DNA from: Myxococcaceae bacterium
Lineage (GTDB): Bacteria > Myxococcota > Myxococcia > Myxococcales > Myxococcaceae
Direction of reading: 5' to 3'
Assembly: GCA_019694575.1 (NCBI GenBank)
Contig: JAIBBR010000016.1
Location: 1-54,293 of the forward strand
Length of the DNA stretch: 54,293 nucleotides
This document shows positions 3,526 through 29,003 of this stretch, one piece after another; position 1 is the stretch's first letter, and the number at the start of each line of letters is the position of its first letter. The position numbers and the translations under genes were made by a program. The notes beneath the pieces were generated by a model. It did not search any database. It saw only the letters and a program-made list of their open reading frames with translations, and had not been told where the DNA came from.

Positions 3526-4619
3526 AAGCGTTAGACGGGCTGCTCTTCGACGGTGTGGCGCAGCAGGTTTTTCTCCTCGCACGGGCGGTGGTGTTTTACC
3601 AGGGTCAGCGCGTTTACGACGGAGGCAATGCCAGCGAAGACACGCTCTTCGACCTCGCCTCGCTTACCAAGGTGATGAGTACCACCGCGTTGACGCTGCG
3701 GCTCAACGAGCAAAAGAAGCTCTCACTGACTGACCGCGTGTCAGACTTTTTTCCCAACGCGCGGTTAGACACAGACGCCACGGTCGAAGACTTGCTCTAC
3801 CACCGTTCAGGCTACCCGCCGTTTCTCTGCTACTTCGAGCAGACAATGAAAGAGCACCCCGAGCTCTTTGACCTCGATTGCCTGGTGAATCGCCGAGAGC
3901 TCGCTCGGAGCGAAGTGATGGCGCGAGCGTTGGAGACGCCTCCCAGCTACCCGCGGGGCACTCAGGCTGTCTATTCAGACATTGGCTTCATGGTGCTGGG
4001 CGAAATGTGCGCCCAAGCCGGCGGACAACGGTTAGACGCGCTCTTCGAAAGTGAAGTGGTGCGGCCGTTGGGTTTGAGCGCGGGCTACCGCAGGCTTTCG
4101 GTGCCACAGAGCGGAACGCGGCCCATCGCTCCCACGGGTTTCACTCGCCCACGTGAACATGCGCCGGGGCAAGAGACGCTGTGGAACCTGCCAAAGCGCC
4201 CAGCCCGCGACGGCGAAGTCGACGACGACAACGCCTGGTGCATGGACGGCGTGTCGGGTCACGCGGGGCTGTTTTCAACCGCGACTGACGTGGCGCGCTT
4301 CGGTCAGGCGGTGCTCGACGGCTTTCTCAAAGTGCCGTACCCGTGGCGCAAAGACAGGGCGACGCCAGCCAGCACCCGCGCGCTCGGCTTCGACACGCCG
4401 TCAGCTGAAGGCGCGTCGTGTGGCCAGTTCATTGGTAATCGGCCTCCGGGGGCCATTGGGCACCTCGGTTTCACCGGTACCAGCCTATGGGTTGATTTGG
4501 CGCGCAAGCTGGTGGTGGTGTTGCTCACCAACCGCACTGCGTTGGGCCGCGCCAACCTGCGCATTCGCGAGTTTCGTTCACGCTTTCACGACGCGGTCGT
4601 CACCGCGCTCAACGCCTAG
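3522..4619 (+). CDS. serine hydrolase, class C beta-lactamase/penicillin-binding-like
   Basis: 365 residues with a GTG start inside the stop of the upstream LD-carboxypeptidase gene (GTGA overlap). The fold is the beta-lactamase-related family. The nucleophile motif SxxK is SLTK with Ser47 and Lys50 (context LFDLASLTKVMST), the Tyr motif is YSDIGF, and the third motif is in HLGFTGTS. No signal peptide is evident, so the protein is probably cytoplasmic, unlike secreted AmpC. Placement between ldcA and mpl suggests a peptide or D-amino-acid amidase/esterase acting on recycled muropeptides rather than antibiotic resistance. Substrate unknown. Confidence 0.82.
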   Translation: MKALDGLLFDGVAQQVFLLARAVVFYQGQRVYDGGNASEDTLFDLASLTKVMSTTALTLRLNEQKKLSLTDRVSDFFPNARLDTDATVEDLLYHRSGYPPFLCYFEQTMKEHPELFDLDCLVNRRELARSEVMARALETPPSYPRGTQAVYSDIGFMVLGEMCAQAGGQRLDALFESEVVRPLGLSAGYRRLSVPQSGTRPIAPTGFTRPREHAPGQETLWNLPKRPARDGEVDDDNAWCMDGVSGHAGLFSTATDVARFGQAVLDGFLKVPYPWRKDRATPASTRALGFDTPSAEGASCGQFIGNRPPGAIGHLGFTGTSLWVDLARKLVVVLLTNRTALGRANLRIREFRSRFHDAVVTALNA

Positions 4620-4628
4620 AAAGAAAAT

Positions 4629-11678: not shown

Positions 11679-13004
11679 TCAAGACGCGGGTGAGAAGACG
11701 AACGGGTACGCCACTGTCGCTTCAGAGTCTGGCTTGAAGGGGAACACCCAGCCGCGAATCACCGAGCGAATGCAGCTGCCCACCGCTTCGTTGCCCAGCG
11801 TGTTCTCTTCAATGTCGATTTCAGTCACCCGGCCATTGGTGCCGATGGTGAAACGCACCACCACTTTGCCTTTCAGGCTGGGGTTGCGCTTCAACTCTTT
11901 TTCGTAGCAGCCGGTGATGGCGGCCTTGCGCTGCTTCACGTAACGCGCGAGCGCTTCACGGTCGACGTCAGAGCTTTCGACGTCGGGCGCGGCGTCTTGC
12001 ACGCGACCCCGAATTTGCGCGTCGCCCTTGCTGCCCAGGTTGACGTTACCGCCACCCGAGGTGCCCAAGTCGCCGATGGTGGCTGCCGAACCCGCTGCGC
12101 CGCCTTTTTGACCGCCCGCCACCGCGTCAGAGGTGGCTACGCCGACGCCTGAAGCGCCGCTCAACGCATTGGCGATGTCTGCACCGCCCGTTGAACCTCC
12201 GAGCACGTCTTCGAAAGCGCCGCCTCCAGCGCCCGCGGTGCCCAAAATTTTGAGCAGACCCTTCGAAGCGACCTTGGCCTTCATTTCTTCTTTCGAAGGT
12301 GCCGCCGCGACCGGCTTCTCTGACGCTTCTTTCTTCTCGTCAGTCTTCTTTTCTTCTTTCTTCTCTTCTTTGTCAGAGCCCTTTTCGACCTTCTTCTCGG
12401 GCTTCTTGATTTCGACCGGAATCAGCGCCTTGGCGAAGCGGTCTTGCACCAAGTCTTCGAGCGTCAGCTCACGCTCGGGAGGCAATGGCTGGCAGGCGAG
12501 CACCGTGGCGCCCGTCATGTGCAAAAACACTGACGAGGCGAGCACGATGAAGAACAGCTGGTCTAACCCCGAGAAGAACGAGCCCTTGATGTTGGGCGGC
12601 AGCTCTGCCTTGGGCGGCTCGGGCGGAGGCGTGACGAATTGAAAGAGAATCGACACTTCACCGACCGCGACGCGGCCTTTGGAGGTGTCGTTGAGCGGCA
12701 GCACGTAAACGTTGCCGCGCTTCTTGGCCATGCCCTGTTCACGCAGCGCCTGAAACGACAAGTCGGCGTCGCCCACTTTGACCTTGCCGTCCATCGTCTC
12801 GGTAAAGACGAGGGCGTACTGGTCTTTCACGTACTCGAAGAGCGTGAAGGTGGTGGGCAGGTTGCTGACCGGAACGATGAAGGTGTTGCGCGAATCTTGC
12901 CCAATGGTCACTGGACCGCGCCGTTTGAGCGGGCGGTCTTCGGTAATCTTGTTGCCCTGAATGAGGGCCACACGAAGAACTTTGCCGGTGGTGGCGGTTG
13001 CCAT
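11679..13004 (-). CDS. AgmX/PglI-family protein: FHA-like domain, membrane segment, TonB-like C-terminus
   Basis: 441 residues from the ATG at 13004, which has an AAGGAAAG ribosome-binding sequence; an upstream start at 13052 would add 16 residues. Residues 1-125 resemble the degenerate FHA-like domain of myxobacterial gliding proteins such as GltG (LRVALIQGNKI, RRGPVTIGQDSRNTFIVP). One transmembrane helix follows at about 145-170 (FFIVLASSVFLHMTGATVLA). Then comes a Lys/Glu-rich and Gly-rich periplasmic linker. About 345-441 is the AgmX/PglI TonB_C-like domain with ITGCYEKELKRNPSLKGKVV, FTIGTNGRV and VGSCIRSVIRGWVFP; the paired cysteines are typical. It is probably a trans-envelope force or signal transducer. 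It is co-directional with mglBA and the TPR genes. Confidence 0.86.
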   Translation of the reverse strand: MATATTGKVLRVALIQGNKITEDRPLKRRGPVTIGQDSRNTFIVPVSNLPTTFTLFEYVKDQYALVFTETMDGKVKVGDADLSFQALREQGMAKKRGNVYVLPLNDTSKGRVAVGEVSILFQFVTPPPEPPKAELPPNIKGSFFSGLDQLFFIVLASSVFLHMTGATVLACQPLPPERELTLEDLVQDRFAKALIPVEIKKPEKKVEKGSDKEEKKEEKKTDEKKEASEKPVAAAPSKEEMKAKVASKGLLKILGTAGAGGGAFEDVLGGSTGGADIANALSGASGVGVATSDAVAGGQKGGAAGSAATIGDLGTSGGGNVNLGSKGDAQIRGRVQDAAPDVESSDVDREALARYVKQRKAAITGCYEKELKRNPSLKGKVVVRFTIGTNGRVTEIDIEENTLGNEAVGSCIRSVIRGWVFPFKPDSEATVAYPFVFSPAS

Positions 13005-13122
13005 GTCTTTCCTTAGACCATAACCCGTGCGCCGAAGTTCCCGTACAGGCAAAAGCGCTTAACCATTGAGGACGACGTAAGACTTAGCCCGCGATGAGCA
13101 GCTGCTCAAGAATGCTGATGGA

Positions 13123-13365
13123 TCAGAAAGCGTCTTTTTCGATGCTTTTTTCGACCTTGGGCAAAAAGCTCTCTGCCCGCGACAGCTCGTCAAAGTTCAA
13201 ATTCGAACGCTGAAGAATGTAAAACGCCTGCGGTTTCTGAATGCGGCCTTCGACGGTAATGGCGTCGAGGCGAATGACTTTCTTTTTCTTGGGTGCGCCC
13301 GAAGCGTCTTGGGCGAGGGCGCCCGCCGAGAGCATCACCAGCACTGCGCATAAGCATCGAACCAT
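13123..13365 (-). CDS. small exported protein (80 aa), unknown
   Basis: 80 residues. The signal peptide MVRCLCAVLVMLSAGALAQ leaves a mature peptide of about 61 residues, starting with a basic KKKK stretch. The mature part has VIRLDAITVEGRIQKPQAFYIL, similar in style to short exported proteins found beside AgmX/TonB-like genes in myxobacteria, where the phrase TVEGRIQKPQ recurs. It ends in a helix with charged residues. The gene sits between the TPR lipoprotein gene (23-base gap) and the AgmX-type gene, so it may be a small partner of that assembly. The family link is an impression, not a search result. Confidence 0.65.
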   Translation of the reverse strand: MVRCLCAVLVMLSAGALAQDASGAPKKKKVIRLDAITVEGRIQKPQAFYILQRSNLNFDELSRAESFLPKVEKSIEKDAF

Positions 13366-13388
13366 GGTGTCTCTTCACCCTTCGCTGG

Positions 13389-14891
13389 CTACTTATCGTT
13401 GTCCGACAGCTTACCCTTGGTGGCCGGAGCTGGGGCGGAGTCGTCAGACAACTTCGCACCGGGCTTCTTCTTGGCGTCAGCGGCGGCTTTTTTCTTCGCC
13501 TCTTCGGCCTTCTTCTTTTCTTCAGCCGCTTGGTCGTCAGCCGCCTTCTGCGCGTTGGCTGCTTTGTCGGCTTCGGCCTTCTTGTCTTTTTCAGCTTTCT
13601 CGGCCTTCTTCAACGCGTCACGCTTCTCGCGCTCTTTGCGGCGTTCTTCTTTCTCGATGCCTTTGTTCGCGTCTTTAACGTATTGCTCGACCCGGTCGTC
13701 TTTGCCGCCCTTGTCTTGGTACTGGGCGAAGTAACTGAGCGACGTCTTGAGCCGCTCGGTGGTGTCCATGCCGGGAATCTCGGAGTCGAGGTGCAGAATG
13801 GCCAAGTTGAAATAAGGGTCGGCATTGCCGGGCGATAACCGCATGACTTCTTTGTACTGCGTCATCGCCTTGCTGAAGTCTTGCTTGCCCCGGTAAGCGT
13901 TGCCCAAATTCATGCGTGCCGCAGTGAAGTCAGGCGCGCTGGTAACCGCGCCCTCGAGCTCTTTTACTGCTGCGTCGTAGTCTTGTGCTTCATTGAGCAT
14001 GACACCGTAGTTGTTCTTGGCTTCGGCAAAGTCGGGGCGCAAGGTGACGGCTTGTTTGAATGATTCGAGCGCCTGCGGCTTTTGCTTGAGCGCCAGGTAC
14101 GTCAACCCGAGCGCGTTGTGCACTCCCGCGTTCGAGCCGTCGACGGCGCGCGCGTTCTCGAGCACCATTTTCGCCAGCTCGTGCTTGCCTTCACGGGCGT
14201 ACACCTTGGCAAGCAATTGCATGGCGCGCACGTTGCGCTCGTCGGCCTTGAGCACCTTCTTGGCTTCGGTGGCTGCGGCGTCATACTTGGCCTGCGCCGA
14301 CAGCGTGTACACCAGCGCGTTGCGCAGCCCGAGCGAAGCGGGCATCTCGGCAATCTTGTTGCGCACCTCGCTCTCAATCTGCGGGCAGCGGCGGGTGCGG
14401 CAGTACAGACGGGCCAGAGAGTCCCACGCCATGTCTTGGTCGGGCTTAAGACTGATGGCCTTGCGGTACGCTTTTTCGGCGCCGCTGTCGTCGCCTTGGC
14501 GCTCGCGCACCATGCCCAGGTTGGTCCACGCGTAGTCGGCCTTGGCGTCGGCGTCGGCCGCTTCTTCGAAAGCTTTTTGCGCCGCGGCGACGTCTCCCCG
14601 AGAAGCCGCTTCGACGCCGCGTTGAAAGGCCGACTGGGCCGACGCACTGTACACATATTTCGGTACTTCAGGCGGTGGGGCAGGGGCGGGCGCCGGTTGC
14701 GGCGCGGCGGCTTCTGCACTGGGTGGCGACGCTTGGCCCTGCGCGGACGGGTTGGTCTGCACCACCGTCTTGGGCGTGTACGGCACCTCAGGCGTAGCGC
14801 CGGTGGCCGTGGCGCTGTTCTTGGTGGCGCTTTCTTGCGTGGCGCAACCGAACGAAAACGCCAGTACCGCTGAGGCGACAAGGCGTTTCAT
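13389..14891 (-). CDS. TPR lipoprotein with charged C-terminal coiled coil
   Basis: 500 residues. The lipoprotein signal is MKRLVASAVLAFSFGC with Cys16. A Pro/Ala-rich linker follows to about residue 85. Tetratricopeptide repeats fill about 88-390 (for example AYRKAISLKPDQDMAWDSLA, NALGLTYLALKQKPQALESF, AMTQYKEVMRLSPGNADPYF), roughly seven to nine units. The last 100 residues are extremely Lys/Glu/Ala-rich and probably form a single long helix. It is likely an outer-membrane-anchored periplasmic scaffold. The start overlaps the stop of the 1160-residue TPR gene by 4 bases, so synthesis of the two is coupled. This resembles the TPR lipoproteins of gliding and sporulation (Glt/Nfs) machines, but no ortholog is claimed. 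Confidence 0.85.
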   Translation of the reverse strand: MKRLVASAVLAFSFGCATQESATKNSATATGATPEVPYTPKTVVQTNPSAQGQASPPSAEAAAPQPAPAPAPPPEVPKYVYSASAQSAFQRGVEAASRGDVAAAQKAFEEAADADAKADYAWTNLGMVRERQGDDSGAEKAYRKAISLKPDQDMAWDSLARLYCRTRRCPQIESEVRNKIAEMPASLGLRNALVYTLSAQAKYDAAATEAKKVLKADERNVRAMQLLAKVYAREGKHELAKMVLENARAVDGSNAGVHNALGLTYLALKQKPQALESFKQAVTLRPDFAEAKNNYGVMLNEAQDYDAAVKELEGAVTSAPDFTAARMNLGNAYRGKQDFSKAMTQYKEVMRLSPGNADPYFNLAILHLDSEIPGMDTTERLKTSLSYFAQYQDKGGKDDRVEQYVKDANKGIEKEERRKEREKRDALKKAEKAEKDKKAEADKAANAQKAADDQAAEEKKKAEEAKKKAAADAKKKPGAKLSDDSAPAPATKGKLSDNDK

Positions 14892-17800
14892 TTGTCGTCT
14901 CCCTTTAGCTTCTGCGGTGAAGCGGCGGGTTTGGCGGGCCCGTCGAGGCTGCCCACCACGCCTTCAGTGTATTGCGCGTCAGCCGAGAATTGGCCCTTCG
15001 GCTCTTTGAGCACTGGGTATTCTTTGGGGCGAAAACGGTTGAGCGACTCGAGGGTCTTCTTGGTCCACTCGTTGGAGATGCGGTTCTTGCGCGCCTCGGC
15101 GAGCGTGGCGGCGTAGTTTTCGACGGCCTTGTCTTCGAGCGCCACGGTCTGCTGCGCCAAAGCGTCTTGGTATGTCACGACCGCGTCTTCACCCAGCCGC
15201 TTCACTTCAGGAGGAATGGGCGTCTCGACAATGGTTTGCGCGAAACGCTCGAGGGCGAAGCCGCGGCGGTACAGCGCCGCCAAAGTCCACTCTAAGCGCT
15301 TGTACTTGAAGACCTCGCCGTAAATGTCGTTCACCTTTTTGAGGTAATTTTTCTTGGCGGTGAAGCTGTCAGCGAGCTTTTTGCCCGACCCGCCGATTTT
15401 GAGACGCTCGAATTCTTTGAACACATATTCGGCCAACTCGAAGCGGCAGTACGCCGCGGCCTCAGCAGCGAGCGGGCTGGTTTCAGCCTTCAACCCACGG
15501 CGGTCAAAGTCGTCGGCGGCGGCTTGGTACGCTTTGCGCGCTTCGCTCTCTTTACCGAGCTTGGCGAAGTCATCACCGATGCGCTTCTTGGCGTCGATAA
15601 TTAATTCGGCCTGCGCGGGCTGCTTCGAAAATTTCTGCACAAATTCGTTCAAGGCGCCAATCGCCTTGTTGTAGTCGTTTTGCTTTTCGTAAATCAGCGC
15701 GGCGCGGAACTGGTTTTTGGGCGCGTCTTCTGAATTCGGGTACAGGTCGGCATAACGCAAGTACGCGCTCGCCGCGTCGTTGTAGCGCTGCAGACCTTCG
15801 AGCAGGCGGGCGGTATTGAAGAGCGCGGCTTCACGGTCTTTCGAAGCCGGGTAGTCTTTCACCAGCTTCTGGTAGCTCTCGACGGCTTTGTCGAAGTCGT
15901 AGCTGTTCTCGGCGTTCACCGCGACGCGAAACATCGCCGCGTCGGCCAGCTTACTGTTCGGGTACTCGCGGAAAATGCGCTCGTAAAGCTTGAGCGCTGA
16001 ATCAAAGCGACGAGCATTTTCGTAACAAACGGCGGCATTGTTGAGCGCCTTGTCGGCGAACTCGTGCTTCGGTTCTTCGTCGACGAGCTGAATGTATTTC
16101 TGCGCGGCTTGCTCGTAATCGCCCTTGCTCATCAGCTCGTCGGCCAACTTGAAGCGGCCGGCCAGCTTGAACTTGACCAAGTCTTTGTAGAGCTCGCTCT
16201 TGGGGTCGATGACGTCTTTGTTCGCCGCCAAACGCGCCGACACTTCTTCAACCTTCGCCCAGTTCTTGTCGACCAGGTAGGTCTCGATAATCAGGTTGGT
16301 GGCGTACTTGGCCACTTCGGCCTTCGGGTAAAGCACCACGATTTCTTCGAAGCGTCGGCGCGCCTCGTTGAAGTCATTGTGCATGTAATAGAGCTCGGCC
16401 GCCTTGTAGGCGATGCCCGGCATCTTCTCGTCGCCCTTTTTGCCCTTGACGATGTACGCGTCAGAAGCGGTGACCAATTCTTTTTCGGTGGCTGACAGCG
16501 GGGTGGCGACAATTTTTTCGCCGTCTTTGCGGTCGGTACTTTTGAGCACTTTCAGCTCGGGTACCAGCTTGTTGCGAATGTCGAGCTCGAGCTGCTTTTG
16601 CCACGAAAGCACCGCCGAAAACGACGCGTCTTGCAGGTACTTCACGTCTTGCGACGAGTCGCGCACCGACGTGTACTCTTTGGCGGCCTTGGCGAACTGA
16701 AACGAGTTGTAGAGACATTCGGCGTAATAGAACTGCATCTCGTACGCGTTCTTGCTGCGGGGGAAGCGCTCCAAATAAGCACCATAGGCCTTGGCCGCGG
16801 TCTCGAAGGTGGTCTTCGCCAGCTCGAGCTTGCCGTCTTTCTTGTAAACGAGCGCTTGCTGGTGGTGGTAAATCGCCGACGAATAGAGGCTCTTTTCAGC
16901 CAGCTCTCCCGCCGCGGTAATCAGGTCGGGGTCTCGTTTCCACTTCTCGTGCCAGGGAGTGCCGGGCCCAAACATGGTGGACAGCTTCGAAGATTCGGCG
17001 AACGCTTCTTCGAGCCGCCGGTCTCGCTCATACGCCTGCACGATGCGCTGTTGAATTTGCGGAGCGTCGCGGGTGAGCGGGTCTTTCTGCAGCACCAGCC
17101 GGTATGCCTCGATGGCTTCGGGGTGCTTGGTTTGGTCGAAGTACACATCGGCCATGCGCCGGTAAATTTCGGCTTCGTAGGGGCGGCCGCCCAGCTTCTG
17201 AAATTTTTCTTGGGCCTTGGCGATAGAGCCCCACTTCTCGTCGACGAAGCTAATGGCGGTGTACTGCAGCGCTTCGGCCCGCAGGTCGCCGCCCACTTCT
17301 TCGTCGCCCTTTTCTTTCGCCTTTGCCTGGTAATAGTCGGTCAGCGCCAAGAAACGATCGACGGCGTCGTCGAACCGGTCCATTCGGTAATAGGTCCACC
17401 CGAGCTTGTAGAGCGCCTTGTCGTAGAGCGGGTGGTCTTTGTCTTCGACAGCGTGCTCGTAAGCTTCGGCCGCCAACTCGAGCGCCCGGTCGACTTGGTA
17501 TGCGTCGAAGTAGTATTCGCCGATGCGCACCCACGCTTCTGTCGAGAACTTCGACTTCGGGTATTTCGCAATCAGCGCTTGGTATGAGACGCGGCCCTTC
17601 TCGAATTCTTCCTGCTTCTCTTGGCAGTAGCCGAGCAGGTAATACGAGGCGTCGTTCAGCTTGTAGTCGGGAAACTGCGTAATCAGCTTTTGGTAGAGCG
17701 CAATCGACTTGCTGAAGTCGACTTTCGGCTCGGGCGGCGGGGTGGGGTTCTTCTCGGGGTCGAGCTTCTTTACCCCTTCTTCCCATTCGCGCATGGCCAC

Positions 17801-18370
17801 CAGGTGATCATCGCTCGAACGCTCGTAATAGAGCTCGGCCAAGCGAAACATCACGTCGGGTGTGTGCTTGGGCTCATTGGGAAAGCGGGTGAGAAACTCT
17901 TCGAAACGCGCGATGGCGTCGAGGCGCTCTTTACGCTCTTGCACCTCCATGTCGCGAATCTGCTTCTCGTAGTTGTTGGCGAGAAAGTTACGCTTCTCTT
18001 CGTATTTCTTTTCGACGAGCAGCTGCACTTCGCGTTTGAACTCGCGCGATTCGTCTTCGTATTCTTTGAGCGCGCTCGTCAGCTCTTCGAGCATTTTCAC
18101 TTCTTCGGGCGTGCGGCCCATGCCCTCGAAGTAGCGCGTCTTGGGGGCGGTGGCTGGCCCCACGTCTTTTTTCTCTTCTTCTTTCGCCGCCGGCTGGCCT
18201 GAAGGCGAAGGCACTGCGCCGGGGCCTTTGGGTGCATCGGCGGCAGGTGTTTGCGCGGCCTTGCCCTTCTTGGTTGTCTTGGCGGGAGCCGCAGGCGCGT
18301 TGGGCACCGCTTGGGCCCACGCGACGTGCGAAGAGAGCACTGCGAGAGTGACGGCGCGCTTCAAGCTCAT
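14888..18370 (-). CDS. large periplasmic TPR protein (1160 aa)
   Basis: 1160 residues. The signal peptide MSLKRAVTLAVLSSHVAWAQ is followed by a Pro/Ala/Lys-rich linker to about residue 75. A helical segment rich in Glu/Lys (80-155) comes next, then many TPR or YfgC/Tol-Pal YbgF-like repeats over most of the length (for example SIALYQKLITQFPDYKLNDA, RRFEEIVVLYPKAEVAKYAT, YERIFREYPNSKLADAAMFR). The xxYPxSxxAxxAxF pattern is typical of outer-membrane assembly TPRs. No enzyme motif is seen. It is translationally coupled on both sides by 4-base overlaps with the 783-residue and 500-residue genes. Probably a large solenoid scaffold spanning the periplasm. Partners are likely the other products of the cluster. 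Confidence 0.86.
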   Translation of the reverse strand: MSLKRAVTLAVLSSHVAWAQAVPNAPAAPAKTTKKGKAAQTPAADAPKGPGAVPSPSGQPAAKEEEKKDVGPATAPKTRYFEGMGRTPEEVKMLEELTSALKEYEDESREFKREVQLLVEKKYEEKRNFLANNYEKQIRDMEVQERKERLDAIARFEEFLTRFPNEPKHTPDVMFRLAELYYERSSDDHLVAMREWEEGVKKLDPEKNPTPPPEPKVDFSKSIALYQKLITQFPDYKLNDASYYLLGYCQEKQEEFEKGRVSYQALIAKYPKSKFSTEAWVRIGEYYFDAYQVDRALELAAEAYEHAVEDKDHPLYDKALYKLGWTYYRMDRFDDAVDRFLALTDYYQAKAKEKGDEEVGGDLRAEALQYTAISFVDEKWGSIAKAQEKFQKLGGRPYEAEIYRRMADVYFDQTKHPEAIEAYRLVLQKDPLTRDAPQIQQRIVQAYERDRRLEEAFAESSKLSTMFGPGTPWHEKWKRDPDLITAAGELAEKSLYSSAIYHHQQALVYKKDGKLELAKTTFETAAKAYGAYLERFPRSKNAYEMQFYYAECLYNSFQFAKAAKEYTSVRDSSQDVKYLQDASFSAVLSWQKQLELDIRNKLVPELKVLKSTDRKDGEKIVATPLSATEKELVTASDAYIVKGKKGDEKMPGIAYKAAELYYMHNDFNEARRRFEEIVVLYPKAEVAKYATNLIIETYLVDKNWAKVEEVSARLAANKDVIDPKSELYKDLVKFKLAGRFKLADELMSKGDYEQAAQKYIQLVDEEPKHEFADKALNNAAVCYENARRFDSALKLYERIFREYPNSKLADAAMFRVAVNAENSYDFDKAVESYQKLVKDYPASKDREAALFNTARLLEGLQRYNDAASAYLRYADLYPNSEDAPKNQFRAALIYEKQNDYNKAIGALNEFVQKFSKQPAQAELIIDAKKRIGDDFAKLGKESEARKAYQAAADDFDRRGLKAETSPLAAEAAAYCRFELAEYVFKEFERLKIGGSGKKLADSFTAKKNYLKKVNDIYGEVFKYKRLEWTLAALYRRGFALERFAQTIVETPIPPEVKRLGEDAVVTYQDALAQQTVALEDKAVENYAATLAEARKNRISNEWTKKTLESLNRFRPKEYPVLKEPKGQFSADAQYTEGVVGSLDGPAKPAASPQKLKGDDK

Positions 18371-20718
18371 TCGACGTCCTTCAAGACTTCTTTGAATTCC
18401 TCATCGAGCTGCCTCAGCTCACGGTCTTTTTCGGTGGCCAATTTCTGAATGGCAAAGGTGACGTCTTGCTTGCGGGTGAACGCCACGTCGACCAAGCCTA
18501 CGTTCGCCTTGAGCATTAAATCGTAAAAGCTTTGGCGCACCCGGCGAAAGCTTTCAAAGGCGATGCGGCCCACCAGGTAGCGGGCGTTGTTCGCCACCGA
18601 AGCCACTTCTTTTTGGTAACCCGCAATCAACGTCTGTTCGGCCAGCACCATTTCGCGCAGCCGCTCTGAGCGGCGGGCCACCCGGTCACGCAGAGTGATT
18701 TTGGCCTGGTTGACGCGCTCGCGTACGGCCGAGGCGTCGGTGCGAATCACGTCGGCGCGCAACAGCAACTTCTGGGTATCGGCTGGCGCTGCACCCCGCG
18801 CCTGTTGGTACAAAAGGCGCTGCACTTCGAGCGCGTTGACGTACTCGGCGCGCAGCTTGTCGTCGCCAGACACCGCGTTCTCGGCGTTGTTGCGCTCGTC
18901 GGCGAACTGTTGGCGCACGGCCTGCACTTCGGCAAGCAGCTCGTCGAGCCCACGGCGTTCGCTCATCACTTTTTCGAGAAACGCTTTCTCGTCTTCGGGG
19001 GCCGTTTTGCGCGTGGGGCGGGTGTCGTCGACGTACTTCGAAATCGCCGTCAGCTGTGCGTAGTTCGACTGAATCTGAATCGAAATTTTATATGCCTCGC
19101 GATCGAGCGCGTCGACCTTGGCCTGAATGCGCGCCTTACGCGCCTTCAATTCGTCTTCGGTGGCAGGCAGGGTGTCGACCCGGGCCTTGAGCGCGGTGAC
19201 CGTTTTTTCGGCTTCGGCCAAGTCGGCGCGTTGCTTGTCATTCAAGAATGGTTTCACCAGCTCACCTTCGATGGTGGTGAGGCTTTCTTGAGCGCGGGTG
19301 ACCGAAGTTTCCACCGCGTCGGCGCGAACATAGCCTTCTTGCATCACAGGAAAAGTTTCAAGGCCGCGCTCGTCGAGCGCCTTCAAAATGCGCCCGGCAA
19401 TGGTGTTGGCCTCTTCGGCGCCATGCTTGCCTGCTTCAATGGCTCCGACGATTTCGACCGCGTCGCTGACTTCGCGGCGGGTGGTGGCCCACTTGAGCGC
19501 CACCGGAGGCAACAGCGCCGTCACGTCGAGGTTGCGGTCATTTTTTGCCAGCAGGCTGTCGAAGAAGAGCACCGGGTCTTGCTCGGTGGTCAACAGCGCG
19601 TCGATTTCGTCGTACACCGCGCTGTACTTGTTGGCCACGCGCTCGTACTCGTCATAGGCCTCGTCGTACTTTTGCAGCTTGAGCTGCAGCGTGCCGGCAA
19701 GAATGTCGGCTTCGGGCTCGAGCACCGTGCCTTCGGCCACCAACTTGAGCAGCTCGGTGGCGTTGCGTGCGCGCACGTAGTCTTTTTTGCGAATCTGGGC
19801 CCACGCCGTTTCGTAGAGCGAGTCAGGGTAGTTGGGGTTTCGCGGCTCGGGCGTAATTTCGCGATACGACAAAATTGCTTCGTCGAATTGGCCGAGCTCG
19901 AACTGCACGCGCCCCAAGCTGAGCCACGCCAGCTCCTTCACTTGGTTCTCGCGCTCGTCACGCGCTGGCCGGGTGGTAATGCCCCTGAACGCGTTGATGG
20001 CTTCGTCGAGCTTCTTCAGCTTCACGTAGCCCACGCCCACGAAGTAAGCGGAGGCGAGTGAGAAGTTTCCTCCTGCGGCGGCGAGTGAATTGAAAATCGT
20101 CTGGGCGCGGGCGATGCGGTCTTCGGGCGTCAAGTCTTCGCGGCGAAAGAGCCACTTGGCGTACACGTACGAAAGCTCGGGAGGCAGGTTGCCGCCCGTC
20201 AGGCCACGGGCTTGCGTCACATAGTCTTCAATGCCGGCGAACTCGTTGAGACGCCCGGCGATTTCGAGGTAGCGCGCCAGCGCCTCTTTGTAGTGGCCAG
20301 CGCGCAAGTTGAGCAGCTGCCGCAAGTAGAGCCGGCTGCCGAGAAAGTTCTTCTGCTGGTAGAGCGCGTCGGCCAGGTAAAACAGCGCGTCGGCGTAGCG
20401 TGCATTGGCCTGAAAATCTTTGTTCGCCACCAGGTCGTAAAAGAGCACCGAGGCTGTCGAATAATCACCCAGCAGGTACTGAATTTCGCCGTCAGAAAAA
20501 CGGGCTGCGCGCGCCGCTTCGTCGGTGGGCTCGTCGCGCTGTGAGTACTGGCGCTCGACGATTTGAATGTTGTCACGCGCATTTTTGACCTGCGCGCTGA
20601 TGGCTTCTAAATCGCCGGCCGGGTCAGCCAGCGAGGGGGCGCTCAATGACAGCGCGAGGGCCGCCAGCGCGTTCGACCATGCCTGAGCGTATCTCTTGGC
20701 CATGACCTTCTTCTTCAA
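18367..20718 (-). CDS. exported TPR/coiled-coil protein (783 aa)
   Basis: 783 residues. Signal peptide MKKKVMAKRYAQAWSNALAALALSLSAPSLA. The N-terminal half has TPR-like repeats (SDGEIQYLLGDYSTASVLFY, ARYADALFYLADALYQQKNF, LSLGRVQFELGQFDEAILSY). From about residue 440 it becomes long coiled coil, with VTALKARVDTLPATEDELKA and YAQLTAISKYVDDTRPTRKT, running to the end. The combination suggests a periplasmic rod joined to a solenoid. It begins 21 bases after the Ala/Pro-linker gene and overlaps the next TPR gene by 4 bases. The function is not known; context in the mglBA cluster suggests part of a trans-envelope assembly. Confidence 0.84.
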   Translation of the reverse strand: MKKKVMAKRYAQAWSNALAALALSLSAPSLADPAGDLEAISAQVKNARDNIQIVERQYSQRDEPTDEAARAARFSDGEIQYLLGDYSTASVLFYDLVANKDFQANARYADALFYLADALYQQKNFLGSRLYLRQLLNLRAGHYKEALARYLEIAGRLNEFAGIEDYVTQARGLTGGNLPPELSYVYAKWLFRREDLTPEDRIARAQTIFNSLAAAGGNFSLASAYFVGVGYVKLKKLDEAINAFRGITTRPARDERENQVKELAWLSLGRVQFELGQFDEAILSYREITPEPRNPNYPDSLYETAWAQIRKKDYVRARNATELLKLVAEGTVLEPEADILAGTLQLKLQKYDEAYDEYERVANKYSAVYDEIDALLTTEQDPVLFFDSLLAKNDRNLDVTALLPPVALKWATTRREVSDAVEIVGAIEAGKHGAEEANTIAGRILKALDERGLETFPVMQEGYVRADAVETSVTRAQESLTTIEGELVKPFLNDKQRADLAEAEKTVTALKARVDTLPATEDELKARKARIQAKVDALDREAYKISIQIQSNYAQLTAISKYVDDTRPTRKTAPEDEKAFLEKVMSERRGLDELLAEVQAVRQQFADERNNAENAVSGDDKLRAEYVNALEVQRLLYQQARGAAPADTQKLLLRADVIRTDASAVRERVNQAKITLRDRVARRSERLREMVLAEQTLIAGYQKEVASVANNARYLVGRIAFESFRRVRQSFYDLMLKANVGLVDVAFTRKQDVTFAIQKLATEKDRELRQLDEEFKEVLKDVE

Positions 20719-21450: not shown

Positions 21451-22041
21451 TTATTGGCCGCCTTTCTTGAGCTCGGTCAGCACCAGCTTGGCCACGGCCT
21501 TCAAGGTGTCGAACACTCCCACGCCCGTGGGAGCCACCGCTTGCCAGTCGGGAATGTTGCGCGGGTTGAGCACGTTGCGCAGCTCTTCTACCGAGACGGC
21601 GTTGGGTAAGTCGCGTTTGTTGTACTGAATAACGAAGGGAACCTTGTTCAAATCGTAGCCCTGCTCGTGCAAATTGATGCGCAGGTTGTCCATCGACTCG
21701 ATGTTCGCCTCCATGCGCTCCATTTGGCTGTCGGCGACGAAGACCACGCCATCGACGCCTTTCAAAATGAGCTTGCGTGACGCGTCGTAAAAGACCTGAC
21801 CTGGCACGGTGTAGAGGTGAAAGCGGGTTTTGAAGCCGCGAATCTCACCCAGCGACAGGGGCAAGAAGTCGAAGAAAAGCGTGCGGTCGGTCTCGGTAGA
21901 GAGCGAGATCAGCTTGCCCTTCGTTTCGGGGTTGGTCTTGTTGTAGATGTACTGCAAGTTCGTCGTCTTCCCGCATAGTCCCGGGCCGTAATAGACGATC
22001 TTGCAGTTGATCTCGCGGCTTGAGTAATTGATGAAGGACAT
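21451..22041 (-). CDS. mglA: Ras-like polarity GTPase MglA
   Basis: 196 residues, closely matching M. xanthus MglA over the whole length. P-loop GPGLCGKT at 19-26, switch I residue Arg53 (TETDRT), PM3 motif TVPGQ with Thr78 in place of the usual Asp and catalytic Gln82, and the base motif NKRD. Arg53 and Gln82 are the residues used for MglB-stimulated hydrolysis in MglA proteins. The GTP form marks the leading pole and recruits the gliding (Agl-Glt) and type IV pili machinery; MglB sets the lagging pole. The gene is downstream of mglB with a 13-base gap, as in Myxococcus. It is followed directly by the coiled-coil periplasmic gene. Confidence 0.98.
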
Positions 22042-22054
22042 GACGAAGCTTTAG

Positions 22055-22534
22055 TTACTCTGAGAAAAGGTTATCGATATCGCTATCGGAGATTTCGGCA
22101 AAGGGCGAACCTGCTCCCGGAACCGTGGCGCGCTGGGCTAAGGCATCGAAGACGTGCTGCAAATCAGCGGAGGCTTTTTGCAGCCGCAACCGCACCAAGC
22201 CTTCAGAAGTGCGATTGTCGTAAATCACCACCAAGACGACCCGCCCCCCGATCAGCGTCAGGCACAGTGAATACGTCGTGCCTTTCAAAAATTGTTGGGG
22301 AAACTCGTTCTCGCCGATCAACTTGGCCATGCCGCTCATCGCCGCCACGTTGCCGGCGGTCAATGACGCAAGCGAAGTGGTGTCGACGTTTTGGGTGTGA
22401 CCCGCAGCAGAAATTAATTGACCGTTGCGGTCGACCAAAAACACCACCTTGGCGTTGGCGTCTTTGGTCAAGCGATCACACACCGCGTTGATTCGGTGGA
22501 ATTCCTCTTCGTACATCACCAAGTTTGCGGCCAT
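22055..22534 (-). CDS. mglB: MglA GTPase-activating protein MglB (Roadblock/LC7 fold)
   Basis: 159 residues, the same length as M. xanthus MglB. It is a Roadblock/LC7 homodimer that activates GTP hydrolysis by MglA. The conserved stretch LTKDANAKVVFLVDRNGQLI and the central NVDTTSLASLTAGNVAAM match the Myxococcus protein, and the acidic C-terminal tail SPFAEISDSDIDNLFSE, which contacts MglA, is kept. First gene of the mgl cluster; the 13-base spacing to mglA indicates co-transcription. A GGGGG-containing ribosome site lies about 14 nt from the ATG, rather far, so expression may be modest. The 173-base region upstream is shared with a divergent gene. Confidence 0.98.
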   Translation of the reverse strand: MAANLVMYEEEFHRINAVCDRLTKDANAKVVFLVDRNGQLISAAGHTQNVDTTSLASLTAGNVAAMSGMAKLIGENEFPQQFLKGTTYSLCLTLIGGRVVLVVIYDNRTSEGLVRLRLQKASADLQHVFDALAQRATVPGAGSPFAEISDSDIDNLFSE

Positions 22535-22707: not shown

Positions 22708-24261
22708 GTGCTCAAAGGCTCTTTTTACCTATTTCGCATGGTCAGCTGCGTGACGTTGTTGACGGCACAGGCTGCACTGGCGCAACCCGAGGTAACGGCC
22801 GAAAGCCCGACTGACGACCCTGTCGGCGAGCTGTGGGGCCTTCGCTTGCGCTACGGAGCGGCCCTGCGTTCGGGTTCTCAAGCCGACACCGGGCCCGGCA
22901 TGAGCTATTTTGGCCTCACCCCCAATGATTTGGCGCTGGGCGCTTCGATTTTCGGGCGCGGCCACGTAGGTGGCGTGCTCCAGCTTCAACGTGAAGGGTT
23001 CGGGCTGTACGATCAAATGAACCGAGTCACCGCCGGAGCGCTGTTGCGCTTTCACGCCGCCGCCGCCGCCCGGTGGACTTTCGGCCCCCTGCGCCTCGAG
23101 CCGCAGGTCGGCTATGCCTTTCATCAGCTGCCTACTTTCACCAGCACACTCACGCCCAGCCCTGTGCTCACCGCTGGGGCACGGCACGCTGTACTATTGG
23201 CGGGCCGCGTGGCCGTCGACGCGGGGCCCGTCACCATCGAAGCGCGCGGAGAAGTGCCGATTGCCCTGGCCACCATGGGAGGCGACAGCCGGCCGGCGCG
23301 TTCTTCTGGTTTCGCGGTCGGAGGCGCGGTGCGTTTTCCCCTGTTCAGCCAAGGCACCTTGAATTTCGGTGGCGTCGTCGATGGCTATTTTTTGCGCGAT
23401 ACCTTGAGCGTGGCGGCCGACCCTGCGCTCGAAGCAAGCCAGCAGGTGATTCGCTTCGGTGGCGGCCTCGATTTTCAATGGCGTGAAGAGCCGCGCAAGC
23501 CGTACGCGTCGGTGTTGGTGCGAGTGATTGACGCTGACACCCGGGGGCCGTTGCCGGCCGCCGCGCTGACGTTGGAAATCGACGGGCGCGCCCAGCCGCT
23601 CACGCTCGATGGCGAGGGCCGAGGCCGGTTGAGTGACTTGGGCAACAGCACCCTGGTCGCCAAGGCTTCGCTCGGTGGCTACGTGCCTGGCCAGCAAGAA
23701 GGCACCGCGCGGGTGGGCTCGCAAACGGTGCTCGAGGTGTTGCTCAAGAAAGAGGCTCCCCACGTGGGCACGCTGTCAGTGACGGTGGCCGAAAAAGAGA
23801 CCCAGACGCCACTGCCGGGCGCAGTGGTGGTGGTGAATGGCGCGCAAACGGTGACCACCGACGCGCAAGGCCAAGCGTTGGTGAAAGACGTGAAGCCGGG
23901 CCCCGCGTCGCTCTCGGTGACACTCGATGGTTATCAACCGGGTGAAGAAGCGGCCTCGGTGGCGGCGGGCCGTACCAGTGACGTCAAGGTGGCGCTGCTG
24001 CCGGTGAAAAAGCGGGTACCGGCGACGATTACCGGTCTGGTGCGCAGCACCAAGGGGGGCAAGCCCATTGCGGCTGACCTCGCCATACCCCAAGCGAAAA
24101 TTCGCACCAAAGCCACCGCGCAAGGCGCCTTTGCCTTTCGTCTCGAAGGCGGCACGTACACCGTCACCATTTCGGCGCCGGGCTACGTCACCCAAATAAA
24201 AAACGTGACGGTGAAAGATGGTGACCAAGCCATCTTCAACGTCGACTTGCACCCCAAGTGA
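22708..24261 (+). CDS. outer-membrane-barrel-like protein with carboxypeptidase-regulatory/PEGA-type repeats
   Basis: 517 residues from the GTG at 22708, chosen because it gives a normal signal peptide (LKGSFYLFRMVSCVTLLTAQ, cleaved after ALA). Other starts are the GTG at 22651 and the ATG at 22738. The first half of the mature protein has alternating strands like a small outer-membrane barrel (LGASIFGRGHVGGVLQLQRE, VTAGALLRFHAAAAARWTFG). The second half holds three beta-sandwich modules of the carboxypeptidase-regulatory/PEGA type (TQTPLPGAVVVVNGAQTVTT, GPASLSVTLDGYQPGEEAAS, EGGTYTVTISAPGYVTQIKN). Such proteins are usually surface-exposed. The TGA overlaps the next GTG by 3 bases. Function unknown. 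Confidence 0.75.
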   Translation: MLKGSFYLFRMVSCVTLLTAQAALAQPEVTAESPTDDPVGELWGLRLRYGAALRSGSQADTGPGMSYFGLTPNDLALGASIFGRGHVGGVLQLQREGFGLYDQMNRVTAGALLRFHAAAAARWTFGPLRLEPQVGYAFHQLPTFTSTLTPSPVLTAGARHAVLLAGRVAVDAGPVTIEARGEVPIALATMGGDSRPARSSGFAVGGAVRFPLFSQGTLNFGGVVDGYFLRDTLSVAADPALEASQQVIRFGGGLDFQWREEPRKPYASVLVRVIDADTRGPLPAAALTLEIDGRAQPLTLDGEGRGRLSDLGNSTLVAKASLGGYVPGQQEGTARVGSQTVLEVLLKKEAPHVGTLSVTVAEKETQTPLPGAVVVVNGAQTVTTDAQGQALVKDVKPGPASLSVTLDGYQPGEEAASVAAGRTSDVKVALLPVKKRVPATITGLVRSTKGGKPIAADLAIPQAKIRTKATAQGAFAFRLEGGTYTVTISAPGYVTQIKNVTVKDGDQAIFNVDLHPK

Positions 24262-26189
24262 GCCCGGTGACGTCGAAAGCACTCTTTCAACGTGGGCTGG
24301 CCCTGACGGTGGTGGTGATGGCCGCGGGCTGCCCTGACATCGAGCACCGGCTCGACGCGGGCGGCAAAATCGCGCCTTCACCGACGGCCGCGGCGCACGT
24401 GGTGCGCGTCGATGGGCAGGTCTTCTATGAGCACCAGGGGCAGCGCTTTGACGCCAAGCCGGCTCCGTTTTTTCTCGGCGACGCCCTCGAGACTGGCGAG
24501 AACGGGTCGGCGACGGTACGGCTCGCCATGGGGCGTGAAATCGAAATCAGCGCCAACGCCCGTTTCGTGCTCGACGAAACCAACGAAGGTCTGGTGCTCA
24601 ACGTGGCGCGCGGGTTGGTGATTTCGCGTCTCGAAGGCACCAGCGTGCCCGACGGGGCGGTGACGCTGTCGATTTTGACGCCCTTCGGCCTTACCCGGCT
24701 GAGCGGTGAAGACGTGACTGTCGAAGTGACGCTCAACGGGGCCACGGTGGGAGTGAAGGTGGGCTCGATTCAGTGGATTTCACGCAACGGCAAAGCCGTC
24801 ACGGTCACCGAAACGGTAGAGCTCGACGCGCTGGGTTTTCCCAAAGAGAAGGCGCTCACCCCCGCCGAGCTGAAGGTGTCGGCCCTGCGCGGCCGCACCG
24901 AAGTGAAGAAGAACGGTGCCAAAAACTGGTCGCCGGTTGCAGCCAAGAGCCCCGCTCCGGTCGACAGTGGCGACGGCGTGCGGGTGCGCGGCGGCCGCGC
25001 CGCCATCGACGCCGAAGGGGCGGGCTCGACGTTTGGGCTCAGCCGCGACGGTGAAGCCGTCATCGGTGAGGCGCTGGTTTCGAAGACCCGTGAAGACACC
25101 GAGGTTGACTTGAAGAAGGGCGAGTTGTCGGCGGTGCTGCCGATGAAGAAAAAAAGCCGGCTCAAAGTGGGCGACGTGGTGCTGGTGAGTGACTTGGGCG
25201 GTCAGCTCACCATCGTGAAGACGCGCAACGGTTTCGAGCTCAACGCTCTCGCGGGAGACATTCGCATCGAGCGGCCGGGTGCGCCGGCGGCCGAAGTTCC
25301 CGGCGGCAAGGTGGCGCAAATCACCCCTGACGGCGTGAAAGTCGATGACGCGCTACGTGAAGTGGTGACCTTGCCCTCGAAGCAGGGGCTGCGCGTCTTT
25401 CACCCTGGGGTACCTCGGGTGGCGCTCACGTGGGAAGGGCAAGACAAGGCCTATCAAGTCACTGTTTCGCAAGAGCCGGGGCTGACCGCGCCGCTTTTGC
25501 AGGGCATCGTTCACCAACGCTATGTGAACGTCGACGCACCGGCCAAAGGCGCGCTGTTTTGGAAAATCGAAGACGAGGCGGGCAACCCGGTTGATTCGGG
25601 CAGCGCCAGTTTTTCTCCCGAAATTCGCCGCACCGACTTAGAGCGTCAGCGCAACGTGGTGAGCGACGGCTCTGAGAAGACCACCATTTTTTTTCAAGAC
25701 AAGCCGCCTTCAGTGACCTTCACTTACGACCCTGACACCGAAGCCGGCCAATACCGGTTGTCGGTTTACAAAGAAGGGCAGCTTGGCTCTCCACTGGTAG
25801 AACGGCTGTCGAAAGACGAGCAAGTGGTGTTGCCTGAAGGAGCGCTGGGCGAAGGCAGCTATGTGTGGTCAGTCACTCCGCTGGGTAAAAACAATGAAGC
25901 GCTGCGCGGGGGGCGCATGAATAAGCTGCAAATCGTTTACGACAACGCGGTGCTTCGCCTGCTCATCACCACGCCTCAAAATGGAGCCGCCGGCGGCCGC
26001 AGCGTGCCGGTAAAAGGCGTGGCGCCAATAGGCAGCCGGGTGGTGCTCAACGGAAAAACCATCGAGCTGGGCGAAAAATCTCGTTTCGATACTGTGGCAG
26101 CCCCCGTCGGCCGTGGTGTATTGGTCTTCAGGCTCTTTCAAGGAGCCGCAGAGTCCATCACCGTACGAACGGTTCGCCGAGGGAATTGA
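24258..26189 (+). CDS. FecR-domain-like lipoprotein
   Basis: 643 residues with a GTG start overlapping the previous stop; a GTG at 24267 is an alternative. The lipoprotein signal ends in VVVMAAGC. Residues about 45-135 form a FecR-like domain: HVVRVDGQVFYEHQGQRFDA, FLGDALETGENGSATVRLAM, IEISANARFVLDETNEGLVL. A second FecR-like stretch follows (VDSGDGVRVRGGRAAIDAEG). The C-terminal half is beta-rich with YQVTVSQEPGLTAPLLQGIV and VKGVAPIGSRVVLNGKTIEL, resembling Ig or Big-like modules. FecR domains sense or restrain signalling partners and are common beside membrane kinases in myxobacteria. The next gene is a Ser/Thr kinase coupled by TGATG. Confidence 0.8.
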   Translation: MSPVTSKALFQRGLALTVVVMAAGCPDIEHRLDAGGKIAPSPTAAAHVVRVDGQVFYEHQGQRFDAKPAPFFLGDALETGENGSATVRLAMGREIEISANARFVLDETNEGLVLNVARGLVISRLEGTSVPDGAVTLSILTPFGLTRLSGEDVTVEVTLNGATVGVKVGSIQWISRNGKAVTVTETVELDALGFPKEKALTPAELKVSALRGRTEVKKNGAKNWSPVAAKSPAPVDSGDGVRVRGGRAAIDAEGAGSTFGLSRDGEAVIGEALVSKTREDTEVDLKKGELSAVLPMKKKSRLKVGDVVLVSDLGGQLTIVKTRNGFELNALAGDIRIERPGAPAAEVPGGKVAQITPDGVKVDDALREVVTLPSKQGLRVFHPGVPRVALTWEGQDKAYQVTVSQEPGLTAPLLQGIVHQRYVNVDAPAKGALFWKIEDEAGNPVDSGSASFSPEIRRTDLERQRNVVSDGSEKTTIFFQDKPPSVTFTYDPDTEAGQYRLSVYKEGQLGSPLVERLSKDEQVVLPEGALGEGSYVWSVTPLGKNNEALRGGRMNKLQIVYDNAVLRLLITTPQNGAAGGRSVPVKGVAPIGSRVVLNGKTIELGEKSRFDTVAAPVGRGVLVFRLFQGAAESITVRTVRRGN

Positions 26190-27886
26190 TGACCACAGGT
26201 TCTTCTGGCGGCGACTTCCCTCCACGGGAGCCAGTGGGGCAAGTCGCGGTCAGACCTTTCGGTGCGTACTTCTTGGTACGCAAGCTGGCCGAAGGCGGCA
26301 TGGCCGAAATCTTTCTCGCCAAGCAAATGGGCGTCGAAGGCTTCGAGCGCAACGTGGTCATCAAGCGCATGCTGCAGCACTTGTCGAACGTGCCTGACTT
26401 CGTGAGCATGTTTCTCGACGAAGCCCGCTTGGCGTCGCGCCTGGCGCACCCCAACATCGTTCAAATCAACGACTTGGGTTTCGCAGACGGTTGCTACTTC
26501 ATCAGCATGGAATACCTGCCCGGCGAAGACTTTTCGACGGTGCTGCGCACCTCGGCCCGGCGCCGCGAGTACGTGCCGTACCACGTGAGCCTGCGCGTCA
26601 TTGCCGAAGCCGCGCGCGGGCTGCATTACGCGCACGAATTCACTGACGCCAAGGGCAAGCCGCTGAACATCGTTCACCGCGACATTTCGCCTTCGAATAT
26701 TTTCGTCAGCTACACCGGCCAGGTGAAGGTGCTCGACTTCGGCATCGCCAAGGCCGAGTCGCGCGTCACCAACACCACTGCAGGTGTGGTGAAGGGCAAG
26801 TACATGTACATGTCTCCCGAGCAAGCGAGCTCGGGGGCGGTCGACCGACGGGCCGACATTTTTTCGTTGGGCGTCAGCATGTACGAAGCGCTGACCAACA
26901 CCCGGCCGTTCGCTCGTGACAGCGACTTGGCCATTTTGAACGCGGTGCTGCGCTGCGATTTCAAAGTGCCGCGCGCGGTGCGCCCCGACTTGCCTGTCGA
27001 GCTCGAGCAAATCGCCCTCAAGGCGATGTCGCACCACCCTGAAGACCGTTACCAGACGGCCGAAGAAATGGCGGCTGACCTCGAGCGCTTCTTGGCGGCC
27101 ACCACGTCAGGTTCAGGCGGCGCTACCTTGTCGTCGTTCATGGCCAGCTTCTTTGGGCCTGAGCGGTTGGCGTCGAAGACACGCATCGAAAGCCTGAACG
27201 AGCTGGCAGCGAAGGGCGTCGATGTGCCGGGTTTTTCTAACCCGTTGTCGCCGAAAACCGACCCCGACCACACCCAGGCCGGAGTGGTGCCGCAAAGCTT
27301 GAAGCAGGGCACCCCGGCGCTGGGGCCTAAACCTCTGCCGGGGCGTCAAGACAGCAAAGGCCGGGGCGCGGTGCTGATGGCCATTGTCGCTGCGTTGGTG
27401 GCGGCGGCCATGGCGGGCGCATTTTGGGTCGGTGGGTTGGTGCGCAATAACGAGCTGCAAGACGCGGGTGGGGTGAACACGTCGTTCGATTCAGGCGCCG
27501 TGGTGGCCACCCCCGACGCCGGCCCTGAAGCCGCGGTCGATGCCGGCGCCATAGCGACTGACGCCGGCAAGCGCGTCGAGGTGCCGGTTCCGGCGTGTGT
27601 GACATTGACAGAGCGCATTATTCTGGGGGTGGCCCGCAACCACTTTGGTGCGGTGCAGCGCTGCTTTCAAGACAACAAAGACGACTTGCCAGCCAATGCA
27701 GGTCAGCTGTCGGTTGAATTCACCATTGCGCCCAACGGCCGCGTCTCGCGCGCCAAGCCCGAGCTTGGCAACACCGGTGTGGGCAAGTGCATGGAGCGGG
27801 TGGTGAAAGGCATGGTGTTCCCCTGCCAGAAAGAGAAGCAGCCCGCGGTGTTGACGCTGCCGTTCCAATACGAAGTGAAGCGGTAG
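26189..27886 (+). CDS. membrane Ser/Thr protein kinase with periplasmic AgmX-type domain
   Basis: 565 residues from the ATG at 26189, which overlaps the FecR-gene stop by one base. Hanks-type kinase domain about 24-290: glycine loop KLAEGGMAEIFLA, catalytic Lys59 in VVIKRM, loop HRDISPSN with His163 and Asp165, DFG at 183-185, activation segment end MYMSPEQASSG. A single transmembrane helix lies at about 392-417 (VLMAIVAALVAAAMAGAFWV). The periplasmic part starts with an Asp/Ala linker, then a TonB_C/AgmX-type domain (GAVQRCFQDNKDDLPANAGQ, FTIAPNGRVSRAK, VGKCMERVVKGMVFPC). The kinase output side is cytosolic, so the AgmX domain is probably the sensor or envelope anchor. Ends 7 bases before the methyltransferase gene. 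Confidence 0.92.
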   Translation: MTTGSSGGDFPPREPVGQVAVRPFGAYFLVRKLAEGGMAEIFLAKQMGVEGFERNVVIKRMLQHLSNVPDFVSMFLDEARLASRLAHPNIVQINDLGFADGCYFISMEYLPGEDFSTVLRTSARRREYVPYHVSLRVIAEAARGLHYAHEFTDAKGKPLNIVHRDISPSNIFVSYTGQVKVLDFGIAKAESRVTNTTAGVVKGKYMYMSPEQASSGAVDRRADIFSLGVSMYEALTNTRPFARDSDLAILNAVLRCDFKVPRAVRPDLPVELEQIALKAMSHHPEDRYQTAEEMAADLERFLAATTSGSGGATLSSFMASFFGPERLASKTRIESLNELAAKGVDVPGFSNPLSPKTDPDHTQAGVVPQSLKQGTPALGPKPLPGRQDSKGRGAVLMAIVAALVAAAMAGAFWVGGLVRNNELQDAGGVNTSFDSGAVVATPDAGPEAAVDAGAIATDAGKRVEVPVPACVTLTERIILGVARNHFGAVQRCFQDNKDDLPANAGQLSVEFTIAPNGRVSRAKPELGNTGVGKCMERVVKGMVFPCQKEKQPAVLTLPFQYEVKR

Positions 27887-28403: not shown

Positions 28404-29003
28404 CTAAATATCGCGCCGGGCGCTCAAGGCGCGAGCCAGCGTGGCCTGGTCGGCGAATTCCAAATCGCCTCCCATCGGTATGCCCTGGGCCAAGCGTGTT
28501 ACCTTGATGCCCATTGGCTTGAGCAGTCGCGTCAAGTACAGCGCTGTCGCTTCGCCTTCGACGTCGGGGTTGGTGGCGAGAATGACTTCTTCGACGTCGG
28601 TGTCTTGCAAGCGGGTGAGCAACTCGCGAATGCGCAGTTGGTCGGGCCCCACGCCTTCGAGCGGAGACAGCACGCCGTGCAACACGTGGTAGCGCCCCTT
28701 GAATTCGCGGGTGCGCTCGAGGGCCAGTTCATCGGCGATGCCTTCGACCACGCAGAGCAGTTTGTCGTCGCGGCGGGTATCGCTGCAGAAGCCGCACTGG
28801 GGGTGCGCTTTGTCGCAGAGGCTAAAGCACTTGGGGCACAGCGAGACGTGGTCAACCACGTCAAGCAGCGCGGCCGACAACCCCCGCGCGTATTCAGCGG
28901 GGGCACGCAACACGTGAAACGCCAAACGCTGTGCTGTTTTCTCGCCGATGCCCGGCAGCTTGGCGAGTTGTGCCACCAATCGATTGAGTGCGTCGGGCGT
29001 CAC
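28404..29003 (-). CDS. recR: recombination mediator protein RecR
   Basis: 199 residues with a GTG start. RecR works with RecF and RecO to load RecA at gaps. Helix-hairpin-helix LAKLPGIGEKTAQRLAFHVL, a zinc finger with CPKCFSLCDKAHPQCGFC (C-x2-C then C-x2-C), the Toprim domain with LLCVVEGIADELALER and ILATNPDVEGEATALYL, and the C-terminal Walker-B-like region with RLAQGIPMGGDLEFAD. All expected pieces are present and length is normal. It is the last gene of a dnaX-ybaB-recR operon, a classic bacterial grouping. The 123 bases separating it from ybaB hold a long perfect inverted repeat. Confidence 0.96.
   Translation of the reverse strand: MTPDALNRLVAQLAKLPGIGEKTAQRLAFHVLRAPAEYARGLSAALLDVVDHVSLCPKCFSLCDKAHPQCGFCSDTRRDDKLLCVVEGIADELALERTREFKGRYHVLHGVLSPLEGVGPDQLRIRELLTRLQDTDVEEVILATNPDVEGEATALYLTRLLKPMGIKVTRLAQGIPMGGDLEFADQATLARALSARRDI

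Follow-up and report, generated by a model that had tools for sequence, protein, structure and literature searches.

The masABK operon next to mglBA in a Myxococcaceae bacterium is predicted to encode an outer-membrane barrel, a FecR-domain lipoprotein and a kinase with a TonB/TolA-like periplasmic tail

Gene organization and relation to the Myxococcus xanthus masABK operon

In the window, that is, the 54,293-nt stretch of contig JAIBBR010000016.1 to which all coordinates without a locus label refer, three plus-strand open reading frames at positions 22708–24261, 24258–26189 and 26186–27886 overlap by 1 to 4 bases, confirming the coupled operon of the initial annotation. The overlap between the first two genes comprises 4 bases (GTGA). 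The third gene starts either with the ATG at 26189 or with the TTG at 26186, and is accordingly overlapped by the preceding stop codon TGA (26187–26189) by 1 or 4 bases, while the start of the first gene is uncertain between the GTG codons at 22651 and 22708. Open reading frames and family searches, complemented by an AlphaFold2 model for the first protein and a lipobox for the second, assign the gene products to a protein with signal peptide, predicted outer-membrane barrel and three Ig-like domains, a FecR-domain lipoprotein, and a Hanks-type kinase with a predicted periplasmic tail. On one side, the operon is divergent from mglB (22055–22534, minus strand) and mglA (21451–22041, minus strand), and on the other it is flanked by recR (28404–29003, minus strand). 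A phospholipid/isoprenylcysteine methyltransferase-like gene (PF04191; 27894–28403, plus strand) lies 8 bases past the kinase gene and before recR, without a counterpart at the same place in the other loci read. A promoter scan did not reveal a sigma-70-like site, a result of little weight for this group of bacteria. Beyond mglBA follows a minus-strand cluster of GltG-like, GltE-like and TPR genes (11682–20718), and the mglA-adjacent genes p236, TPR783 and TPR1160 keep their place in several other families not having masABK.

With the gene order masA-masB-masK, the divergent orientation to mglBA and the recR flank, the operon is the orthologue of masABK (MXAN_1927–1929) from Myxococcus xanthus, which has already been studied (PMC3546991), and is therefore not new. 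The M. xanthus locus found with the MasB profile (L144) has this gene set in the interval from mglBA to recR, and its MasB of 656 aa with the motif VAGCDDD is identical in both respects to the values printed in that study. In M. xanthus, masABK is divergent from mglBA, the three genes are cotranscribed, and MasK resides in the inner membrane, often at the leading pole (PMC3546991). As far as summarized there from earlier work, masK was discovered via a suppressor of mglA8, a masK allele suppresses this mutation, and MasK contacts MglA in the yeast two-hybrid system (PMC3546991, citing Thomasson 2002). Two-hybrid contacts were also found among MasA, MasB and MasK, and deletion of masABK abolished pilA expression and social motility (PMC3546991). 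However, complementation took the add-back of both pilA and masABK, the latter not being sufficient (PMC3546991), so that this phenotype has to be weighed carefully. The MglA contact and the effect on social motility are documented for M. xanthus only. The cause of cell reversal and the route by which the message reaches MglA are called unclear in the same study. Gene order, the position divergent from mglBA and adjacent to recR, the lipoprotein and the kinase are common to the published operon and the one in the window. In contrast to the barrel and FecR domain predicted here, MasA was described as an inner-membrane protein and MasB as lacking conserved domains (PMC3546991), and AgmX, TonB, FecR and a barrel are all unmentioned in the main text of that paper.

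MasA as a predicted outer-membrane barrel

The AlphaFold2 model of MasA from the window, built with 18 sequences, has a mean pLDDT of 87.5 and shows ten strands, mostly of 15–20 residues, forming a barrel between residues 41 and 259 (22828–23484), followed by the Ig-like domains; with a pTM of 0.51, the placement of barrel and domains relative to each other is not to be trusted. These three carboxypeptidase-regulatory domains (23506–24258) were also recovered by family search, and the last one resembles the transthyretin-like domain of carboxypeptidase D (Z 14). The barrel matches OpcA with a Z of 21.6 (rmsd 2.2 over 196 residues) and OmpT-type barrels with a Z of about 18, in support of the surface barrel proposed from the sequence at first. 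MasA is thus predicted to form a barrel in the outer membrane and to expose three Ig-like domains to the periplasm, as the even number of strands should leave both barrel ends, and with them the attached domains, on this side. Pfam did not reveal a plug domain, and the model has ten and not 22 strands, which is not the architecture of a TonB-dependent receptor.

This prediction departs from the published picture of an inner-membrane MasABK complex, in which two predicted helices anchor MasA and the complex tunes pilAGHI expression by sensing or presenting PilA. The picture is backed by a PhoA fusion and by two-hybrid data with PilA (PMC3546991), yet a secreted barrel would also activate an internal PhoA fusion. 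Moreover, both helices, when mapped by alignment, fall on barrel strands 2–3 and 8, the hydropathy of MasA does not show a recurrent helix beyond the N-terminus, and the published 505-residue MasA, counted from the same stop codon, seems to start with a signal-peptide-like sequence. Considering also the close match of the barrel model to OpcA, we regard the inner-membrane complex as rather unlikely. If the outer-membrane reading is true, MasA moves from the inner to the outer membrane. A ten-stranded barrel with three Ig-like domains has not been reported earlier for MasA in the literature that could be searched, and neither MXAN_1927 nor MXAN_1928 appears in the main text of one paper on M. 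xanthus outer-membrane proteins.

MasB as a FecR-domain lipoprotein

The FecR domain of MasB (residues 76–171; 24483–24770) is detected at an E-value of 1.4e-4, just below the gathering score, and was found in 18 of 19 MasB orthologues, most of which also bear a lipobox. Searching the PDB with the MasB sequence returned no informative match. Anchoring of MasB in the inner membrane has been argued from the Asp following the lipid-bearing Cys (PMC3546991). Among 37 distinct lipobox contexts, collected by a simple pattern and some of them doubtful, only 12 show Asp at this position and the others mostly Ser or Gly, so that the argument fails for the MasB family as a whole. The initial annotation had pointed to FecR as a known signalling-partner fold. 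FecR regulators of sigma factors are marked by a cytoplasmic N-terminal domain and one membrane helix, and MasB does not fit this description, since most orthologues bear a lipobox and Pfam did not detect the N-terminal FecR domain. MasB is therefore not the sigma-factor signalling partner.

Kinase domain, membrane helix and tail of MasK

The catalytic domain of MasK (residues 31–292; 26276–27061) matches Pkinase at an E-value of 8.8e-32. All 17 orthologues compared retain the VxxK-type Lys as well as the HRD, DFG and APE-type motifs, while the Lys of HRDLK is replaced (HRDISPSN). By these motifs, MasK is a Hanks-type protein kinase. Past this domain, each of the 17 orthologues has one clear hydrophobic helix (residues 395–413; 27368–27424), in many cases preceded by basic residues, hence the tail should be periplasmic. 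Two predicted helices are mentioned for MasK in PMC3546991, and one orthologue (L044) shows a borderline second hydropathy peak. On hydropathy, Pkinase and tail profile matches, the topology originally proposed, with cytosolic kinase, one helix and periplasmic domain, can thus be retained as a prediction. In having a cytosolic Hanks kinase, one helix and an extracytoplasmic domain, MasK resembles the PknB-type kinases, the model of which matches the MasK kinase region at 260.8 bits, below the cut-off of 450, but these enzymes bear PASTA domains instead of a TonB-like tail. In one metagenome contig (L052, genome G013; 4447–5380), the masK matches are split across two frames, representing either a sequencing error or a broken gene.

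The tail (27614–27868) scores 53.7 bits against the AgmX/PglI family NF033768 (cut-off 40), and tails of this family are present in 17 of 17 MasK orthologues, with the cysteines C493 and C535 being invariant and possibly forming a disulfide. The tail model is confident (pLDDT 91.7). TolA and TonB chains lead its Foldseek matches, bar one Bacteroides DUF5043 protein, and a second structure aligner gives about 20 TolA/TonB chains at Z 5–7 and all other matches at 3.5 or below. In addition, 10 of 10 PDB sequence-profile matches of the tail are TonB, each of them weak when taken alone. Taken together, the MasK tail is predicted to adopt the TonB/TolA C-terminal fold, and a description of it as such a domain with an invariant Cys pair was not found in the literature that could be searched.

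Conservation and genomic position

Of 24 Myxococcaceae genomes, 19, including the present one, contain MasB-like genes, as opposed to none of 16 genomes from other families of the order. The loci read over a longer distance show masA, masB and masK on one strand in this order. In two sets of loci overlapping in species, the tail is encoded in all loci that extend far enough (16 of 16 and 31 of 31; in L061 recognized by alignment). A divergent mglB is seen in 24 of 24 named-genome loci of sufficient length and in 12 of 15 loci of the other set. Consequently, both the linkage of the three genes and the kinase tail of the initial annotation are borne out across Myxococcaceae, the former with few exceptions and the latter in every MasK with enough sequence. 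Among the exceptions, genome G010 has extra copies, and G001 and G004 bear the operon elsewhere. In G011, a tailed MasK of 511 aa is encoded beside mglB (L161, 6285–7820), while masA and masB were not found, which is possibly a reduced form of the system in which MasK may work alone. One could extend this to all carriers, with MasK acting alone near MglA, the tail being a mere anchor, and MasA and MasB doing something separate. However, the three-gene order is kept in nearly all other genomes and contacts among the three proteins are reported (PMC3546991), which gives this explanation a low probability.

In six loci of other families (L165, L167, L168, L175, L176 and L178) as well as in genomes G020, G023, G001 and G004, recR is directly upstream of mglB. 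In masABK carriers, it is the operon that occupies the gap between both genes, and in G006 and G021 the gap is filled by other genes, including an open reading frame resembling, by inspection, prolyl oligopeptidase. We read this as insertion of masABK into an older recR-mglBA arrangement, the alternative being repeated loss from this slot. The location of masABK in a gap closed in other families was not described before in the literature that could be searched. Outside the family, no tailed kinase was present among the 30 high-scoring kinases read from 16 genomes of other families. The locus L146 (BNCN01000011.1), titled Comamonas sp. KCTC 72670, shows a typical Myxococcaceae mgl-mas region and is probably mislabelled.

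Relation of the MasK tail to GltG and GltJ

The likeness of the kinase tail to the AgmX-type protein encoded 10 kb away, which was pointed out in the initial annotation, is real, amounting to 35% over 77 aa (E 2e-11) with the GltG-like protein (11682–13052), albeit the motifs considered to be shared correspond only approximately (CFQD versus CYEK and FTIAPNGRV versus FTIGTNGRV). As in GltG (PglI) and GltJ (AgmX), the single membrane helix of MasK is followed by an NF033768 domain of TonB-like fold at the C-terminus, but those two proteins are not kinases, and an identity of MasK with GltG or GltJ was rejected at full-length scores of 29.1 bits (cut-off 650) and 39.3 bits (cut-off 450), respectively. 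The annotation had further suggested that, via the tail, MasK is tied to the envelope apparatus to which the GltG-like protein of the mgl-linked cluster belongs. Besides the common domain, this would fit the location of both genes next to mglBA in M. xanthus and relatives. However, NF033768 has matches at 19 places in this genome, 14 of them above the cut-off, and at 5 to 36 in each of the other genomes searched, so that the tie is weak. Moreover, the Glt-like genes remain next to mglBA at loci from which masABK is missing, making a shared apparatus very unlikely. By kinase profile, MasK is the only kinase among the 19 places, and two further genomes with 28 NF033768 matches have one tailed kinase each, both MasK, although the limited flanks covered could miss kinases with very long linkers. 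In G011, one 801-residue open frame encodes two NF033768 tails in tandem (G011:C1:7741520-7742194). Also very unlikely is a role of MasK as TonB- or TolA-like transducer powered by an AglRQS/TolQR-type proton channel, a mechanism put forward for GltG and GltJ. Despite the same fold of the tail and the description of GltG and GltJ as TolA/TonB-like proteins (PMC5349195), the MasK helix is poorly conserved among orthologues, does not show a recurrent polar residue by eye, and channel genes were not seen in the operon.

A proposed chain from the outer membrane to MglA

On balance, we favour with some reserve that the masABK proteins form a chain from the outer to the inner membrane that may relay the envelope state via MasK activity to MglA or to regulators of pilA. 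In this chain, the MasA barrel would lie in the outer membrane with its Ig-like domains in the periplasm, MasB would take the middle position as FecR-domain lipoprotein, and the TonB/TolA-like tail of the inner-membrane kinase MasK might dock on MasB, MasA or both. Changes in the outer membrane or in the pilus apparatus would then alter kinase activity, and the kinase may act on MglA or on the pilA regulators. The sequence itself establishes the gene order, the family membership, the conserved catalytic motifs, the conserved tail with its invariant Cys pair and the recR-mglBA position. Accordingly, the part of the initial annotation suggesting envelope-to-cytosol signalling near MglA can be kept on the basis of linkage, tail, predicted topology and the published MasK-MglA contact and mglA8 suppression, while the apparatus shared with the GltG-like gene product is dropped. 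Against the chain, it has to be considered that MasA and the tail are models and not structures, that the MasA two-hybrid contacts are uncertain because the fragments were cut from the predicted barrel, that masABK was insufficient to complement the published deletion and the PhoA data were read as inner-membrane topology (PMC3546991), and that G011 has a tailed MasK in the absence of masA and masB. Such a chain departs from the published model and would offer envelope signals a path to the MglA polarity switch. MasK, reported to contact MglA and probably reaching toward an outer-membrane barrel, would be a candidate sensor, the parts of which, i.e., tail, cysteine pair and MasA barrel, are separately testable.

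FecA-FecR-TonB type signalling employs an outer-membrane barrel, a FecR domain and a TonB fold in one protein set. The masABK system as predicted here likewise combines these three elements, but it differs in that MasA shows no plug domain, the FecR domain belongs to a lipoprotein and a kinase takes the place of the sigma factor as output. More tentatively, masABK might represent a family of trans-envelope kinases, leading from the MasA barrel via FecR lipoprotein, TonB-like domain and Hanks kinase to MglA, with further such modules in Myxococcaceae and one of them inserted next to mglBA. More distant barrel-FecR modules were found in several genomes, some with tailed kinases, and have not been reported earlier for the family in the literature that could be searched. 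The barrel-FecR-kinase modules L180, L181, L185 and L187 lie away from mglBA and have tailed kinases, in L185 and L187 with about 250–295 residues ahead of the kinase domain. In the MasB tree, most MasB proteins of the distant modules form their own clade (100/100), and the copies from G001 and G004 group among the mgl-linked ones.
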